Shown: positions 17,391-26,138 of the stretch, one piece after another
Numbering within the stretch: position 1 is the stretch's first letter
Layout of the letters: every line of letters starts with the position of its first letter
The notes under the pieces: model-generated
Database searches by the model: none
Told to the model about the DNA's origin: nothing
Seen by the model: only the letters and a program-made list of their open reading frames with translations
Assembly: GCA_905250025.1 (NCBI GenBank)
Contig: CAJNOJ010000219.1
Location: 111,909-175,908, forward strand
Direction of reading: 5' to 3'
Origin: Adineta ricciae
Taxonomy: Eukaryota > Rotifera > Eurotatoria > Adinetida > Adinetidae
DNA length: 64,000 nt
Translations under genes and position numbers: made by a program

Positions 17391-19869
17391 TCACGAAAGC
17401 ACACATAAAGCTGAGCGAGGTACATTTGTTGGATCAGACTTTTCAATTGAAGCTGGCACGAAAGATTTTGTCTCTTCTAAAAACTGCAAATATTCACTGA
17501 GAGTAAGTATTTGTCGTTTTTCCTTCGTGTTCGACATAACTAATTCGTTATTCAGAGATTGAAACATCAGCGGTGAATTTACCAGACACATTTTATACAT
17601 TGCCAATAGACGCGTTCCGGTCATTTGCGAACATATCGGTAGTAAACTTTCAAGATGTTGTTTGAGAAGAAATTGTTGCACATCATCGATTGTCCATTGT
17701 TCAATATTCGAAGGTAGACGATGATCACTACAATTTATACAAAATCATCAACATGCTATCTTTTCATTTTCATCTTACGTTTTTGCCTGGTACGTTGATT
17801 GTAGTTTAGTCTTCTCCTCATTGACTGGTGGTGTATTTTTACTCGGCATTTCATGATGCATACTCGTTAGAGTTGATTTCAGATCCGCTTTTTTCTCTTT
17901 ACGAGTTCGATTGATTTCAACTATTAACTTTTGATAGGCATCTTCAAAGCCATATTTAGGAAAATCAACACGCATGCGACCTGTAACAATAATTCCAAGC
18001 CATCCATCGGGTCGATATTGTGCCTTTACAACCAGTGGAATAATTAAGCATTGCCGTTCTACAGCATAATACGCTTCCATTTTGCAATAACCACTCTGTT
18101 TATAACCATCAGACATACAAACCAAGACGAATTCCGAGTTTTCAATCGCGTTCGACATCGCTTCGAGTGGTGTGCCATGCATTTGATCGCGATCTATCCA
18201 TACACGAAAATTATCTTCTTGTAAACGATCATAGAGTTGGAAACATAAATCTTTATCCTTATGACAATAGCTGATCATGATGTCATAAGTTGTTTTAGAC
18301 GATTGATCTGTTGAATGAGATGATTCTGAGGTTTCCTCCTTGGTTAAAAGCCAAAATAAACTTTCGCTAGCACGTTGTAAATCGACATTTGTTGAAGTCT
18401 CTGACATATTTTTAATATATTCAAGAAAATCCGTGTTTTGTTTCAGTTCGTTCTGAACATTTTTATTGAATGACATTATCAACAGATTTTCTAATGCACG
18501 CTGTTGAACAAGTGGATCATTTTGTGACGAATTAGCACATTGAATAAAGAGTGAAATGCCTGATTGTTTATATATTTCATCACGAATTTGATCATGTTGT
18601 AGTAAAGCTAAACACATTTGGCAAATGATATTATCTATGTAGTTATTCAACAGGTTATTTACTTTTTAGACTGGCTAAGAGGTTTTTCAACCGTACTACC
18701 CATACTGAATCATGCATTATGCTTCGTAAACAATCGAGAAAGACTCGAGCTATCTTTTCTGGATCTGCAAGTCGTTTGATATCATCTTCGGTCATAATAG
18801 CAGCTAGAATTCGATAGATATTGAATTGAATATCCGATTCATTCTCATATTTAGTCAATAGTTTTAACATTGTTGGTGTTAACTTTTCGCTTTTTAAATG
18901 ATCCAATATTTTATCATTCTGTGTGCCCAGATAGACATATTGAATACAATGTTTGTGAAATTCTATCGATCGACAATTTCCTGGAAGAATCTTGATAGCC
19001 GTATCAACCAGAGAGATTTGCACATCAAGATCTTGATCACTTGTTTCAGTCATTTGAACGTAATAGAGAAATAATAGTGTTGCTTCTTCTAACATTCGAA
19101 TTGCCGATTCTGACCAATGTTCACCTTCCGATGCGTAACCTTTGACTAATTCACAAACGGATGGAAGCAGATGTTTACGAACAATCCATGCTTGTTGCTC
19201 AAGTCGATCTCTATTCATTAGCATGAGAAAGTCGAATAATCCGTCAAAGACAAATTGTTCGGCTGGTGAGCGGTCTCCGGATTTTGCAGACGCTTTCAAC
19301 TGAGTCACAACTTCGGCTGTGTACGGCGCAAAAAGACATTTGAATATTGCATCTTCAAATGGTGAATCGTTAATAAGATAACCTCTGTTATGACTGTGAA
19401 TAATGGTGTAGTTAATAAAAAGACTGCTGATAACTTTCATATTGGAATGAATATACATTACTTTTCCAAGGCGAGCAATAGCGAGTAGACATTGGTTAAA
19501 TTCTTCAATGAATGATTCATTTTGTGAGTAATGAGAATAATTGGAGTCTGTGAATATTGTGCATAAGTTTTCACATGTTTCAGAATCGTATGAGACTTTG
19601 AAATTTTCTGATTCACGCCATTGTTTTAATAATTGTAAAAAATCATTCATGAGAACGGTCAATATGGATTCATTTAAATAGATGATATTTTCGGACAACA
19701 ATTTCGTCACTTTATTCATCTCTCGACGGAAACTTGTCGCATTTGACGATTGAAGACGCTCTAATTCCGTAACAATATCATTCAAAATCGAATCGTCAGT
19801 CTGATAAAATTGACCATTTTCTTTCCATTCTTCTAATTTAGCACAGCTCTGTGCGATCAGTTCACTCAT
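17391..19869 (-). CDS. ARM-TIR protein with a frameshifted C-terminal SAM exon
   Basis: Exon 1 19869-18663, exon 2 18607-17779, exon 3 17728-17391. The 55-base intron between exons 1 and 2 (GTAAAT...TTTAG) removes an in-frame stop. Residues 1-500 are all-helical armadillo-like repeats. A TIR domain spans about 509-640 (YDIMISYCHKDKD, FRVWIDRDQM, FVLVCMSDGYKQSGYCKMEAYYA, LIIPLVV). The Glu of CKMEAYY sits where the SARM1 NADase has its catalytic Glu, so NAD cleavage is plausible. Exon 3 encodes a SAM domain (QWTIDDVQQFLLKQHLESLLP...GTRLLAMYKM), but with the obvious donor it is one base out of frame around 17700, which would stop the protein at 17683 (693 residues). An alternative phase-1 donor at 17842 would restore the frame. 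Start chosen at MSELIAQSC; the longer upstream frame looks non-coding. The family is common in rotifers and lophotrochozoans (from memory). Confidence 0.75.
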
Positions 19870-20523
19870 CGTCAAAATTTGATGCTTTGAAAAGTTGAGA
19901 TCGGTGAAAACATTCTGACAGTTTCTATGCAACACGTTCTTTTTCTTTCTCTTTCTTAACGTTCTTACAGTGGCAGTCTCAGTGTGACATAGAAATGTTG
20001 TAATCATATTTGCCTTTCTCGAATTTTACGCTGCGTTCTGCAGAAAAGATTTCACTGGTGGGTAATTCATTTCATAACATAAGTGTTTAACTTTTTGTTA
20101 CCCTCATGAGAAAATGTATCTACATATCTGTATAGTCGAAGATGGACGTGCTTGAAACGTCAGAATTCGTATTAAGATTATTTTTCACGACATGAAGCAA
20201 TGTATGAACATGCCTGAATAAGATTTTTTTGCATCTGCTTTGCAATTTATTTTCGAAATAATCGCTAATGTTCATAAATTAGAAAAGACGTTTACAAGCT
20301 ATTCGATTACGGCATTTATTGGTTTGTGCTAGCTAAGAAGAGATACTACTACAGACATAGTTTTCACAACAAACACGAACATAAACATGACTAAATTATA
20401 TAAATAACCGGTGAGATAGATTCTGTTCTCAGAGCGTATAGTAGATAAGAGGATAAAAAGCAAGAAAATTTCTTGGTTTTCGAGATGCGTATGTGGACAT
20501 GTATACAATCATGATGATGATGA
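19870..20523. other. Intergenic between ninjurin and TIR gene
   Basis: About 650 bases holding the likely ninjurin 3' UTR and the TIR-gene promoter. An in-frame extension of the TIR gene to 20007 is Lys/Arg-rich and not supported by domain content. Nothing else seen. Confidence 0.4.
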
Positions 20524-20669
20524 TTAAATAGCATGAAAGATTGAATAAATAATATTCAAAATAAATAAGAAGAAGACAAAGATCAAGCCAAAGTTTTGGA
20601 GAAAATCAGTTTTACGGTGTTTGAAAACATCCTGATCATTGATTGTTATCATATACATAAGATAAAAGC
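20524..20669 (-). other. NINJ: Ninjurin alternative last exon 3
   Basis: Follows TTCTTCTAG and opens G-FYLMYMITINDQDVFKHRK, then the helix FGLIFVFFLFILNIIYSIF, stop TAA (47 residues after the shared Gly codon). It aligns with NINJ1 VLLIFLVKYDLNNPAKHAKLDFLNNLATGLVFIIVVVNIF in order and spacing. Confidence 0.85.
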
Positions 20670-23600
20670 CTAGAAGAATAGAAATTTCTTGTTGTTTATA
20701 TTTTGCCTAAACGTATGTGAAGACATGAGGAAAAAATTATAATTTAGTATTCATTAGAAGAGAAGAAAATATTCTAAAAGCCTACTTAGAAGATTGTTCA
20801 CGAATACAGATATGTTTGTTAAAGAAAAATAAACTGAACGCCAAAGAGAAAGAGAGAAGTTTTAGGAAAAGACGGTTAAATTAGCTGCACGCGGCAATGA
20901 AGATGTTGAAAATGGCAAGAATGAATAGGAGACAAATGACACAATTGTCGATATAATCGAGTTTATGTTGTTTGTACTGATCGTTTATGTCGATTCGCAT
21001 CACATACATAAGAATTACACCTAGAACAGAAGGAAAAACGGATCATTCAGAACTCGTACAGACATAAATTAGTATATAAAAAAAACGCAGCACGAACTAA
21101 TTTACATATTAGTACAAGAGAATACACAAACGAACATGTCTCGAATCATATATATGGACAATTTTAGAGTTTAAACATGATAATTAGAAAAGTAGTATTG
21201 AGTATGAATAAAACTAGAACTAATACAGCCGGTAAGATGAGAAGAATTCGTTCGTAGCGTGATAAATTTTCCGATGGTGATACCAATGGGAATTGATCGA
21301 GCCGCGTACACAGAAATAAGTACAGTTGAACAAAGCCTAGAAACCGGGAAGGCAAGATAGTAACGTCGACTACATTGGAAAGACAATGAGAAGGATGAGA
21401 AGAAGAATGTGTACAAGTAAGGTTAGATAGAAGAATGAGTACAAAGATCGGAAGAGAAAAACAGATACGAGTGAATGAATACTCAGAAAATCTTCTAGTT
21501 TTTCATTGAGGAAACTTACCGATGCTAGCACACATGAGGATAGAGACAATGCCAAGTGTAACTTGAGTGCCATAGAATGTACTCGATGTACTTCTTGAGA
21601 GAACGTGCTTCAATTGTACACTGTTGCTCATGACGATAATCTACGAGATAAACATCAACAAAATGATTCAATATTTGAAGGTATATCTTATTTTGAAATA
21701 ACGCAATTGTCTTATCACGTCATTATTCTCATCTGTGGAACACATTAGTATCGTTAATTATCACTGCGGTTAAATGATCTGAATATACGACTAATATGAA
21801 AATCGTGACATACATAAAGTATAGATCTGCTTGTTCGCATAAATAGTCTCATTATTTCATTTAAAGACTTTTGTACATATGACAATTCGATATTTTTAAT
21901 CTGACTTACCAATAAACACAAGATAGTCATAGCTGTTTTCTTCATTGAATAAAATCGAGGATCTAATAGTGCAGCAGGCGGTTGCTGAAGAACAAACATA
22001 AATATTAACAAATCACACGGACAAACAAATGAAATTTATCCAAACCGATTTATCTTGAGCACGTAATGCCGATGGTACATAACGTTTCACGTCGAATCGA
22101 CGTCTGTCAGTTTCGGACTCGACACGTTCGCGATCGATCATAGGTGCCTGAAAGAAAGAAACAAATTAATACATTTAATCGCATTAAAGATATATCTGAT
22201 CTGATCACTAAGAGGGAAAACATGAGCAGAACTACTTACCTGTGCCAATTCAGCGGCATGTTGATCATCTACGGACATTTTCCCTCAAATATTCCTTTTT
22301 GTCCTATACTTGAAGCGTATCGAGAAGGAAAACCGTCTTAATGACTTTTATCTATAGATTCAATCAATTAATCAATTCAAAATATTGACATTATCTTTTC
22401 GACTAACAATCCTTTGTTTTCCTCTGTTATTATAAGCAAATCAGATCACGAATAACAATAAAAAACAAAAAAAAAAGAAACTACCGTAAACAATAAACCA
22501 CATCGTTCCATTATTATCTGTCTTAGTAAAAGTCATCGATAACTTTCTCTTTCTTCTAACTAGCTCGATTATTCCTTATGATCGATCACCAAATATCCAT
22601 ATCGGCATGATACGAACAAAAGCAGCAGACTAGTCTGATGAAGAACGATGCGAAAGTAGAGTGAGAGAGAGAGAGAGACGGAGAAAAAATAAGTGTAAAT
22701 GTGTGCACCATTTGCAAAGGACAATCCACAAGATAAAAAACAGAGAAAGAAAAATACATGTCGGATATTGAGAATGCTGCTTCGTCTTTCTTCGTCAGTA
22801 CATATAAATCTACAAATACAACATTTTTCAAGTCTATCGGCACTAACCATGCAAATATGTAGTTATGGGTCGCGCAAATAACCTTCTCGAACTATCTACC
22901 TATATACTACACACTCTCTCTTCGCTTTCTTCTTCTTGCTCTTTTTTTTTTATTATTAGTTTTCTTTCGTCTGTCATATATACTAAAATCATATCAAGAA
23001 GAGAACCATTCGTAAAGACAAGCGAGAAAAACTGATACACATACAACTACCCACTGGTGCAACTCATGATTGCCATTTTTATGTCTATATTATCCTTAGT
23101 CTTGTTGTTTTTTCACGATTGCTTATATAAAACGATCAAAAATAAAAACAATGCCATAAATGCACTGCATTAGTTAGAAAAATACTCGATTCATTCCTGT
23201 ACTTCATTAAACTTCTCAGCAGTTAGGCACACGAAAATATAAAGTAAAATAAACGAAAAGTGTCTCAGCGAGAGCATATCGTTCTATTTAACATTTTCTC
23301 TCGATAACAAACAAGGGTAGAATGTAAATGTGTGATCAAGATTTCGACAGAGAAGAAAGAAAACGATTGAATACTCGAGATAATGCATATGCTTTTTGTT
23401 TTTCAACTGCAGCTGGTATAACGTGTTTCTTTTATACTGCTACTATGCAAGACATACCAACATGTTTGACTTGAAGTATTCGTCTTTTTGATTACAAGCA
23501 AGTCAAAGTCGAAAAACAAAGATTTTTCGTTTACGTCTATCCATATACAAGATTGAGTTCGTTGTAAAACGAATGGCGAGCGAGGCAATAAAAGAAGAGA

Positions 23601-23894
23601 GCTACTTACAGCGTATTTGCCTTGTCGATCGATCGTTGCGATTTCGGTTGACGATTGTTTTGGTATTGTTGAGAGATTTGGCGGTGAATTGTTCAGATCT
23701 GTTGTAGTAGTCGGATATTGATTGTTGGGATCCATTGATAACGATGTTTGGTCTTTTGAATTGGTGGGTAAATCGCTTCGATCTGCAAAGAATGAATAAT
23801 TATCAGGATACAATGTATCAGGATAATAAATTCTTGTAACAAGTTGAGACTGAACAGGACGTTGATTGCTATTGTCTATTGTTTGAATACTCAT
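20524..23894 (-). CDS. NINJ: Ninjurin with alternative first and last exons
   Basis: Constitutive exons 22147-22046, 21984-21910 and 21640-21520. The encoded core matches ninjurin: FYSMKKTAMTILCLLIIVMSN, then VQLKHVLSR, then the first hydrophobic helix STFYGTQVTLGIVSILMCASIG, which parallels KKSAAESMLDIALLMANASQLKAV...VLISISLVLQIGVG of NINJ1. Two alternative 5' coding exons (23894-23610, 95 codons, Pro/Ser/Thr-rich; 22278-22240, 13 codons) both end at phase 0 before the exon at 22147. Three alternative last exons (21336-21164, 21020-20881, 20669-20524) all begin at phase 1 and each supply a different second transmembrane helix and stop. NINJ1 proteins oligomerise through amphipathic helices to rupture the plasma membrane during lytic cell death, or act in adhesion. 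Protein lengths range about 157-251. Every exon closes the frame exactly. Confidence 0.88.
20881..21020 (-). other. NINJ: Ninjurin alternative last exon 2
   Basis: Follows TCTGTTCTAG and opens G-VILMYVMRIDINDQYKQHK, then DYIDNCVICLLFILAIFNIFIAACS and stop TAA (45 residues after the shared Gly codon). It is the closest of the three to vertebrate NINJ1 (KLDYIDN versus KLDFLNN). Confidence 0.88.
21164..21336 (-). other. NINJ: Ninjurin alternative last exon 1 (divergent)
   Basis: Follows GGTTTCTAG and opens G-FVQLYLFLCTRLDQFPLVS, with a longer polar loop and the helix ILLILPAVLVLVLFILNTTFL, stop TAA after 56 residues. It shares position, phase and hydrophobic pattern with the other two last exons but little sequence. 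Confidence 0.8.
22240..22278 (-). other. NINJ: Ninjurin alternative first exon (short)
   Basis: ATG at 22278, 13 codons (MSVDDQHAAELAQ), GTAAGT donor at phase 0, 92 bases before the shared exon. It replaces the 95-residue Pro/Thr-rich N-terminus encoded at 23894-23610. Confidence 0.7.
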
Positions 23895-26138
23895 GATGTT
23901 AAATGAAATATTTTCACGTGATGACGATATTTCATAAAGGCAGGCAGAGAAAAAAAATCAAATACTTGATATATATGCAAGTATTTGTCGGCGAATGATT
24001 TTGTTGCAAACAATAAAAGACGCAAAGAAAGTAGTGGTTTCGTTGTTTTTTTTCTTCGTTCCGTATTTCGTTAACTCGATCGATGTAGCTGTGTCAGAGA
24101 AATGCCAATTGATCACAACGATCGATAGGGTTGCTCGATATTATTTATCTGAGCTCGTGCGGTACAATTGTTACTTCAGATCAAGGATATGACGATCTTT
24201 CTAGCTTCGATCCAATAAAAAATCATCATGTAAGGGAAGAAGACAGAGAGAGTGTGTGTGTGATGTACGATGGAGATCGGTATATAATGCTGCTCTTAGG
24301 GCAAAAACTCACTTTTATTCAATGTTTGAAATTTGACAATGCTTACAAAGTTTTTCTTGGAAAATTCAGCCATAACTACCCTAGACAAAGACCGACAGTC
24401 GATGAGGATCTGATCATGAAGTCAAGCGCGCATTTTCTTTCCTTCGTCAAAGGTATACACATAATTAAACATCACGATCGAAAGGATTTGTAAAGTCTTT
24501 ACATCTTTGTAATGTATATACATATATAGGTATATATGGGCGTGTGTCCTTTGAGAATTATCAATGTCGAGATTGACATTTGATGTATTAGATATTTTTG
24601 TCTCTTGACAAACGATGAGATGCAGATTTGAATAGATTTATTTAGAGCTTACCGTAATGTTTCGAGTGTAATTTCTCTCGAATCGATTCTTTGATATTGT
24701 TCGAATGAGTAATATTAAACTAAAGAAAACAAAATCAGATGATAATGATAATGATCGTTTACGAATAAATCGATGTCGAGAGGCAAGGATTTAAGACGCA
24801 ATTGAATGAATATTATTCTATGGTACGTTAATGTGTACAATAATGACAGGGAATTATTTGTTATTTTTTGTTGTTGACACCGTGTTATGGACAGTGATAT
24901 GTCAGAAGAATAAACATCGATGCAAATCTACGATGTGATTATCAATCGCAAGAAAACAGGAGATAAACAAGCATTTTCTTGTTCTCTAATCGACTATTAT
25001 TAATATCAATCTAACAGTATGCGATATTCTATAATGCACAACTTGATTGACGCCTCTCGTCAACTGATGCACCTGCTGATCTTATTCAATAATGAATGAT
25101 GGAGAATAATATATATTTTCATGATGATTGATAGTAAACAGTTTTATATCGAGAATACAACGAGGAGGCAAAGGATTCGACGTGGATATTACTTCGATTA
25201 GTTTGAAAATCCGGAATTGAGAGCAAAAACTTACCTTCATGAAATGAAAATAACATGTTTGACAATCAATGAAAGAAATGTTGAGAATGTGGATTTCTAC
25301 TGGATAATATCTCGATCGATTGAATAGAAATAAAATGTAAACTTGAGTCTGATTATCAATTGAGAAAAAGAAGAGGATTAGAACGTGGATGTAATGTATC
25401 TGAATTTCTTTTTCTTTCTTTGTATCTCGTCAAGATGAGACAAGGATGAATGATAGTCTAATGAAGTAGATGTAAGTTCAACAATTGATCGATTCATTGT
25501 GCGAATAATTAGTCTCTTGCGTATAGAGACATGTTAAATAAGAATTTATACAGATTACAAGAGAAAAGATAACAATTTGGTTATTCGTGAATGTTCTCAG
25601 CTCGAGATAACACGTTAATTCAGAGTACTATGAAATAGGACAGTACACGTTCGTTTGTTCTATTAAAAGAATATTTATTGCGACAGATTTGGCCCTTGAA
25701 ATTTAGAATAGAATATTATTATCTAAATGCAATGAACATTCTCTCTTTTATAAATGATTCAGATTGGAAATGTCAAAATTGCTTTATCTTATCTAATCTC
25801 TTTTAACCAATGTACTTTTTCGATTACTAACATTTGTGACGCAAATTTGACTTAATAATGACTGTATGGGTTGACTCCGATTTAAATACATCAAGGAATT
25901 TTAAAGTGTCTATGTCATAGATTAGAAAATCGATGTAGTCTGTATGCGATCTACTCAAGAGCAGAAAATACCAGCCAATCATCAGAAAAGTCTAATAATC
26001 GACGCGATTGGTGCGTGTGAAAACCAATGTAAATAAAAGAAAATTCTATGTCTTGGGTTTTTGAGCGCGTCTGTCTGACACTTTTTTCTTCCGAGATCAG
26101 TTTTTTCTTTAAATTCACGTCTCGATTAGCGAATCTCA
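23895..26138. other. Divergent intergenic region, possible 5' exons of ninjurin
   Basis: About 2.2 kb between the ninjurin (-) and TOM70 (+) starts. On the - strand two strong donors without obvious internal exon context occur: ATGAAG before GTAAGT near 25230-25240 (phase 0, could join the exon at 22147), and a GTAAGC near 24650. These may be further first exons. Open frames at 23995-24493 on the + strand look non-coding. Confidence 0.35.

Follow-up and report, generated by a model that had tools for sequence, protein, structure and literature searches.

The stretch of DNA analysed here raises the question of whether a single ninjurin gene of a bdelloid rotifer can, by a choice among three last exons, give rise to subunits that share a front half and differ in the remainder of the protein. 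The window, a stretch of 64,000 nucleotides, is part of contig C219 of the 130-Mb assembly of Adineta ricciae, and the locus comprises one minus-strand ninjurin gene with constant exons followed by three candidate last exons, termed a, b and c. Three protein searches provided 39 different related proteins (P numbers below) in a list clustered at 90%, a clustering that hides further forms.

Organization of the ninjurin locus

All exons lie on the minus strand. Two alternative first coding exons were identified. The longer (23610..23894) encodes 95 aa, ends at a GTAAGT donor in frame with the second exon, e2, and displays 99% identity with residues 1-95 of annotated protein P0013. The shorter, e1 (22240..22278), encodes MSVDDQHAAELAQ, the same kind of start being present in P0002, P0003, P0009 and P0015. 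The long kind of N-terminus is also found in Rotaria proteins P0006, P0008 and P0019, and Rotaria thus has both long and short N-termini. With two first exons and three last exons, the gene could encode 2 x 3 proteins. A third possible N-terminus, used by P0001 and P0014, comes from a first exon located further upstream (~24650-24719), with a start near 24719.

The constant part continues with e2 (22046..22147), which is matched in both gene copies on contig C27 (see below), and e3 (21910..21984), which encodes most of the α1 equivalent, including the positions of NINJ1 K44, K45 and D53. Exon e4 (21520..21640) encodes the end of α1, α2 and the first part of α3, up to the equivalent of NINJ1 Gly95. 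The introns from e1 to e4 are GT-AG, and the phase-1 end of e4 leaves a single G ahead of GTAAGT, the one donor that the last exons share. Exons a (21164..21336), b (20881..21020) and c (20524..20669) are entered at acceptors 21336, 21020 and 20669, respectively. Each acceptor is preceded by CTAG, and the bases supplied (GC, GT and GC) complete a Gly codon. The three frames close at their own TAA after 57, 46 and 48 codons, leading to predicted isoforms a, b and c of 169, 158 and 160 aa. Exon coordinates, phase, Gly completion at the three acceptors and frame closure, all proposed in the first-pass annotation, hold on recheck.

Open frames of this length are confined to few sites. The interval from 21519 to 20300 contains 21 YAG sites, of which four (21369, 21336, 21020 and 20669) open a phase-1 frame of at least 45 codons; the frame of site 21369 comprises 68 codons and the next longest beyond these four sites reaches 41. 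Acceptor 21369 lies in frame 33 nt upstream of exon a and is used by annotated P0014, which thereby gains 11 residues (21337-21369). One donor is therefore followed by several phase-matched and conserved terminal exons, the arrangement by which alternative last exons are recognised. Downstream of the gene, also on the minus strand, window positions 18655-20025 hold a 456-aa open frame with a weak match to a ULK4-type HEAT profile (19.4 bits; cut-off 27).

Relationship of the three tails to the ninjurin family

Family membership was assessed with the Pfam Ninjurin profile (PF04923; cut-off 26 bits). The constant part joined to b and to c scored 54.7 and 46.5 bits, respectively, both above the cut-off, while isoform a scored 22.9 bits, below the cut-off and also below the constant part alone (24.9 bits). 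Among a-type relatives, P0013 scored 22.6 bits and P0015 of Rotaria sp. Silwood1 29.8 bits. The tails taken alone gave 28.3 bits for b and 19.8 for c, and the exon a tail gave no match to the profile at E values up to 10. Isoform b, in addition, matches the solved NINJ1 and NINJ2 structures over about 100 residues. A profile comparison with hhalign relates b to c (probability 96%, E 4e-9) and returned 3.7% for a against b (E 0.012, 11 columns) and 2.8% for a against c (E 0.016, 15 columns). When the tails were compared with NINJ1 residues 95-138, the score of a was reached by 51 of 2000 shuffled sequences and those of b and c by none of 2000, a result that for a is at best a weak hint of homology to the second half of NINJ1. 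Comparison of a predicted exon-a structure did not place ninjurins above unrelated helical bundles.

On these profile and alignment scores, b is an ordinary, canonical ninjurin second half and c a diverged relative of b, while a, which has a longer loop, is not clearly homologous to either. The first-pass view that each exon encodes a version of the second half of ninjurin is thus borne out for b and c by profile and alignment; the a tail, in that annotation a candidate inhibitory variant, is conserved, yet sequence does not identify it as a second half of this kind.

The gene resembles the ninjurin family (NINJ1, NINJ2 and Drosophila NijA-C) by the PF04923 scores of isoforms b and c, and departs from it by its three alternative second halves, the unrecognised a tail and the loss of the D53 and Q91 equivalents. 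Drosophila NijA has four exons, and the portion of its description available (PMC3460944) mentions no alternative last exon. The first-pass annotation knew of no such switch in any ninjurin, and a ninjurin with alternative last exons was likewise not found in the open-licence literature, among the matches listed and as far as their accessible text extends; nor were open-licence papers found that treat ninjurin together with rotifers. Tandemly duplicated alternative exons, as outlined in parts of PMC9013439 and PMC9741552, are similar in that b and c are homologous, phase-matched, replaceable neighbours. In contrast to them, the exons described here are terminal, each with a stop of its own, and homology of a to b or c is not detectable. 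The splice isoforms of GSDMB, which tune a cell-death pore protein, provide another likeness, as splicing alters a membrane-damaging protein, but GSDMB is unrelated and its change sits in an interdomain linker rather than in membrane helices, as excerpted from PMC12547243.

The proposed exon choice would swap one side of the NINJ1 subunit contact

The Gly whose codon is interrupted by the intron is residue 113 of the query; in a gap-free alignment it falls on NINJ1 Gly95, which lies inside α3. The splice junction, previously placed after the first membrane helix, is therefore located within that helix. In NINJ1, α3 comprises residues 79-103 and α4 residues 114-138, and α3 residues pack on α4 of the neighbouring subunit; the pair F127-G95 presents the top co-evolution score and connects subunits across the filament contact (sections of PMC10307626). 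With the junction at the Gly95 equivalent, the choice of last exon would replace the end of α3, the loop and all of α4, which together constitute one side of the subunit contact. NINJ1 has its termini outside the cell (same source, in part), and the α3-α4 loop should therefore be cytosolic.

The mutations K45Q, D53A, I84F, Q91A, G95L, T123L, I134F and A138L reduced or abolished lysis by NINJ1 (PMC10307626, in the part available). Exon b keeps the equivalents of F127, I134 and A138, and exon c keeps those of F127 and I134 and has Ile at A138. Exon a has Leu, Thr and Ile at these three positions, although its α4 alignment is unsure. T123 is kept by no tail, being Ile in b, Leu in c and, with the same doubt on the alignment, Ala in a. 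Gly95 is present in all three isoforms, and its partner Phe127 is thus Phe in b and c and, on the unsure alignment, Leu in a. The constant part keeps the equivalents of K44, K45 and A47 and carries replacements at E49 (Thr), D53 (Leu), I84 (Gly), Q91 (Cys) and G93 (Ser). Leu71 in the D53 column and C109 in the Q91 column do not vary among 11 aligned b- and c-type proteins, and the α1-α2 stretch is mostly hydrophobic. With Leu at the D53 equivalent, the salt bridge that links K45 and D53 between subunits of the NINJ1 filament cannot arise here in its known form. Description of the products as pore-formers is weakened by these residue patterns, the equivalents of Asp53 and Gln91 being replaced by Leu and Cys.

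Conservation within the Adineta ricciae genome

A DNA search of the A. ricciae genome revealed two further gene copies on contig C27, about 15 kb apart. Both display matches to e1-e4, then a, then b, in the order found in the window, and the e4 donor, the acceptors of a and b, the phase and the stops were checked in each. Between window and C27, 27 of 57 aligned residues are shared in exon a and 39 of 46 in exon b. NG86 dN/dS of the window gene against the first C27 copy was about 0.11 for e4 (0.25/2.34), 0.21 for a (0.35/1.66) and 0.05 for b (0.07/1.39), and YN00 gave a ratio of 0.34 for a (0.38/1.10) and no value for e4 and b; these ratios are rough because silent sites are near saturation, and every defined ratio lies well below 1. 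Against the second copy, NG86 values were the same for a as with the first and 0.09/1.84 for b, and dS was undefined for e4. These substitution patterns indicate that exons a and b of the C27 copies are kept under protein-level constraint. The two C27 copies differ from each other at 3 of 121 sites in e4, 0 of 176 in a and 3 of 140 in b, with no amino-acid change.

The near-identical C27 copies, at ~126 kb and ~141 kb, are each followed by a similar conserved gene, which we take to be SNF5/SMARCB1-like, and the pair reflects either a recent segmental duplication or an assembly effect. Bdelloids are ancient tetraploids, and a synonymous distance of about 1.27 is given, apparently for A. ricciae ohnologues, in the available text of PMC5916493; on these grounds the C27 copies are probably ohnologues of the window gene. 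Exon c is missing from both C27 loci: a whole-genome search with c recovered, apart from c itself, nothing but the b exons of the three loci. Five more ninjurin-like loci (on C109, C33, C1, C27 at 543 kb, and C50) are uninterrupted across the position of the splice between e4 and the last exon. A weak match on C430 (E 0.16, two stops) gave just short weak pieces in tblastn.

Tail types in other bdelloid species

Sorted by their tails, the 39 related proteins comprise 15 a-type, 13 b-type and 4 c-type members, and 7 lack a complete tail (P0016, P0027, P0028, P0029, which is a truncated b, P0030, P0033 and P0036). The a type is found in A. ricciae, A. steineri, R. socialis, R. magnacalcarata, R. 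sp. Silwood1 and R. sp. Silwood2, and the b type in A. ricciae, A. vaga, R. sordida, R. socialis and R. sp. Silwood1. The c type occurs in A. vaga (P0011), R. sordida (P0009), R. magnacalcarata (P0012) and R. sp. Silwood2 (P0037, with odd extra residues). Two tail types are thus present in seven of eight species, one in A. steineri, and all three in none of the eight, as counted on the 90%-clustered list; all three are found together in the A. ricciae window gene itself. Both types follow the same constant sequence in two of the seven two-type species (A. ricciae and R. socialis). The other five (A. vaga, R. sordida, R. magnacalcarata, Silwood1 and Silwood2) have differing constant parts, from which it appears that the two tail types of these species probably belong to different gene copies.

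The tails were compared as 28 distinct sequences of more than 40 residues (14 a, 10 b and 4 c, the three of the window included), after removal of duplicates and of the truncated P0029. Mean identity within a type was 62% for a, 90% for b and 83% for c, against 24% between a and b, 25% between a and c and 36% between b and c, so that each last exon behaves as a separately conserved unit. The a type of the window recurs in 13 other distinct tails, one of which is P0022 of C27, and the c tail of the window gene shows 77-81% identity with the remaining three distinct c tails, which come from A. vaga, R. sordida and R. magnacalcarata. Lack of conservation in related species had been named beforehand as an observation that would speak against the three exons; the a, b and c tails are all kept there.

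Several individual tails depart from the general pattern. The a-type tails of Rotaria (P0019 and others) display serine runs of variable length, up to about a dozen, in the loop, a composition which suggests that the a-type loop may be flexible and possibly modified. In P0016 of R. sordida, the constant part is as in the c-type P0009 and the ending begins b-like (GVIL) and then diverges, reflecting either a mis-annotation or another splice form. In P0023, from a contig of 3101 bases, an a-like stretch continues into the b exon. The a-b order is thereby seen in another locus, and as no stop intervenes, exon a may be broken there.

The a and b exons were likely present before the two gene lineages, represented by the window and C27, parted. 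Exon c is either a duplicate of b gained in the lineage of the window before the Adineta-Rotaria split or an exon lost from the other lineage. A tree of the constant part, for which 22 proteins out of the 39 were used, has low resolution, with stars on 3 of its 15 inner branches, and the idea that c is confined to one ohnologue is thus based on the C27 loci and residue patterns rather than on the tree.

Transcript and annotation support

Relatives P0002 and P0004 present uninterrupted, complete frames from e1 to b on contigs of 1068 and 982 bases. The window gene spans 1398 bases from ATG to the b stop, including four introns, and the shorter contigs are therefore probably spliced b cDNA, the alternative being an intronless copy. 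Protein P0001, annotated on the same contig as the window, is 100% identical to predicted isoform b over 92% of its length. It ends in b, while P0014, annotated on this contig as well, ends in a, and the two have their first 181 residues in common. In R. socialis, similarly, one 40-residue e4 sequence is joined to b (P0005 and P0008) and to a (P0031). A further a-type protein, P0013, is annotated on another A. ricciae contig. Among the 39, none of the A. ricciae proteins ends in c, which is annotated in other species only, and the short cDNA-like contigs include neither a nor c tails. The a-type proteins P0032, P0034, P0035, P0038 and P0039 appear to be genomic sequence translated through the intron into exon a and have no bearing on splicing.

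BRAKER adds alternative forms mostly on RNA hints. It was used with aligned RNA-seq for gene prediction in A. ricciae, R. magnacalcarata, R. socialis and R. sordida, and prediction in A. steineri, Silwood-1 and Silwood-2 used the reads of a related species (methods portion of PMC7943196); P0001 and P0014 may come from this annotation. Alternative use of the last exons, for which the transcript support is indirect, is probable.

Probable use of alternative last exons and rival explanations

It is fairly likely that bdelloid ninjurin pre-mRNA is spliced from the shared donor at 21520 to one of three alternative last exons. Chance open frames are very unlikely because a and b recur in the same order and phase in both C27 copies and all tail types recur in other bdelloids, and they were rejected on this cross-species conservation. 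There is little probability that only b works as a last exon and that a and c are relics of exon duplication, rarely or never spliced. The relic reading would fit b being the best Pfam Ninjurin match, cDNA-like contigs that show b only and C27 loci without c, but in three loci of the genome the frame, stop and acceptor of a are intact (dN/dS 0.21-0.34), a recurs in 13 other distinct tails, and c is 77-81% identical to three other c tails; such open frames across the Adineta-Rotaria split would not be expected of relics. A division of the tail types among gene copies, each ohnologous copy mainly expressing one tail, agrees with the annotated types sitting on different constant parts in five of seven two-type species and yet is improbable: the window gene carries all three exons, annotation on its contig joins a and b to one constant part, R. 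socialis joins a and b to one e4, both C27 copies carry a and b, and 90% clustering hides other forms. The proposal of three phase-matched alternative last exons on a ninjurin gene is, in sum, supported by frames, splice sites and conservation.

How the messages end bears on the kind of splicing involved. Between 21640 and 20000, the window copy presents canonical AATAAA signals only after c, at 20320 (20315..20320, minus strand, the first downstream of e4) and 20251, with none between a and b or between b and c, so that the three forms may share one 3' end. The exons would in that case be entered by alternative 3' splice sites and all messages would end at a common distal poly(A) site, the exons downstream of a and b being retained as 3' UTR in their respective messages. 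This arrangement is possible but tentative, as both C27 copies have an AATAAA about 30 bases past the exon-a stop, ahead of exon b, and non-canonical signals may operate in the window copy.

Under alternative last-exon splicing, the cell would select among acceptors of one gene, and a constant α1, α2 and first part of α3 would be joined to different α3 ends, loops and α4 helices. The resulting subunits would have a common face and differ in their partner faces and loops. Isoform b would serve as the default subunit of ninjurin-like kind, c would be a diverged duplicate whose α4 is altered, and a would be a form with a strongly divergent tail. The forms would most likely differ in self-assembly or partners, with c and a most likely modulating or replacing b assemblies in particular cells or stresses; candidate outcomes are membrane rupture, adhesion or something else. 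A lytic/anti-lytic switch, in which b makes NINJ1-like membrane-rupturing filaments and c and a cap or poison them, is unlikely. The swap takes in all of the protein past Gly95, and with it the equivalents of T123, F127, I134 and A138, and b keeps the last three, while c and a have Ile at A138, a position where A138L reduces or abolishes lysis by NINJ1 (PMC10307626, accessible part). Against this, all forms have Leu and Cys at D53 and Q91, where D53A and Q91A also reduce or abolish NINJ1 lysis (same portion), as well as Gly and Ser at I84 and G93, and T123 is Ile, Leu and Ala in b, c and a, the α4 alignment of a being unsure. Adhesion or membrane-organising variants without lytic function are a conceivable reading, short of a favoured one: ninjurins are also homophilic adhesion proteins (PMC11664169, in part), the α1-α2 stretch is mostly hydrophobic and the E49 and D53 equivalents are Thr and Leu, but those of K44, K45, A47 and Gly95 are kept. 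More speculatively, and with low probability, splicing at Gly95 might set the filament interface and the cytosolic loop and so control rupture or other ninjurin assembly, perhaps tied to drying and recovery, through at least six co-assembling forms of which c and a modify or poison b.

The final step of lytic cell death is carried out by NINJ1, and the determinants of rupture in ninjurins are still being worked out. The gene described here, found in an animal that tolerates desiccation, provides natural, conserved swaps of exactly the part that follows Gly95, while the front half stays constant. Comparison of its isoforms would separate the contribution of α4 and the loop to assembly from that of α1-α3. 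The locus also suggests that ninjurins may diversify through the choice of a terminal exon, and the meaning of that choice for membrane rupture is a testable hypothesis.
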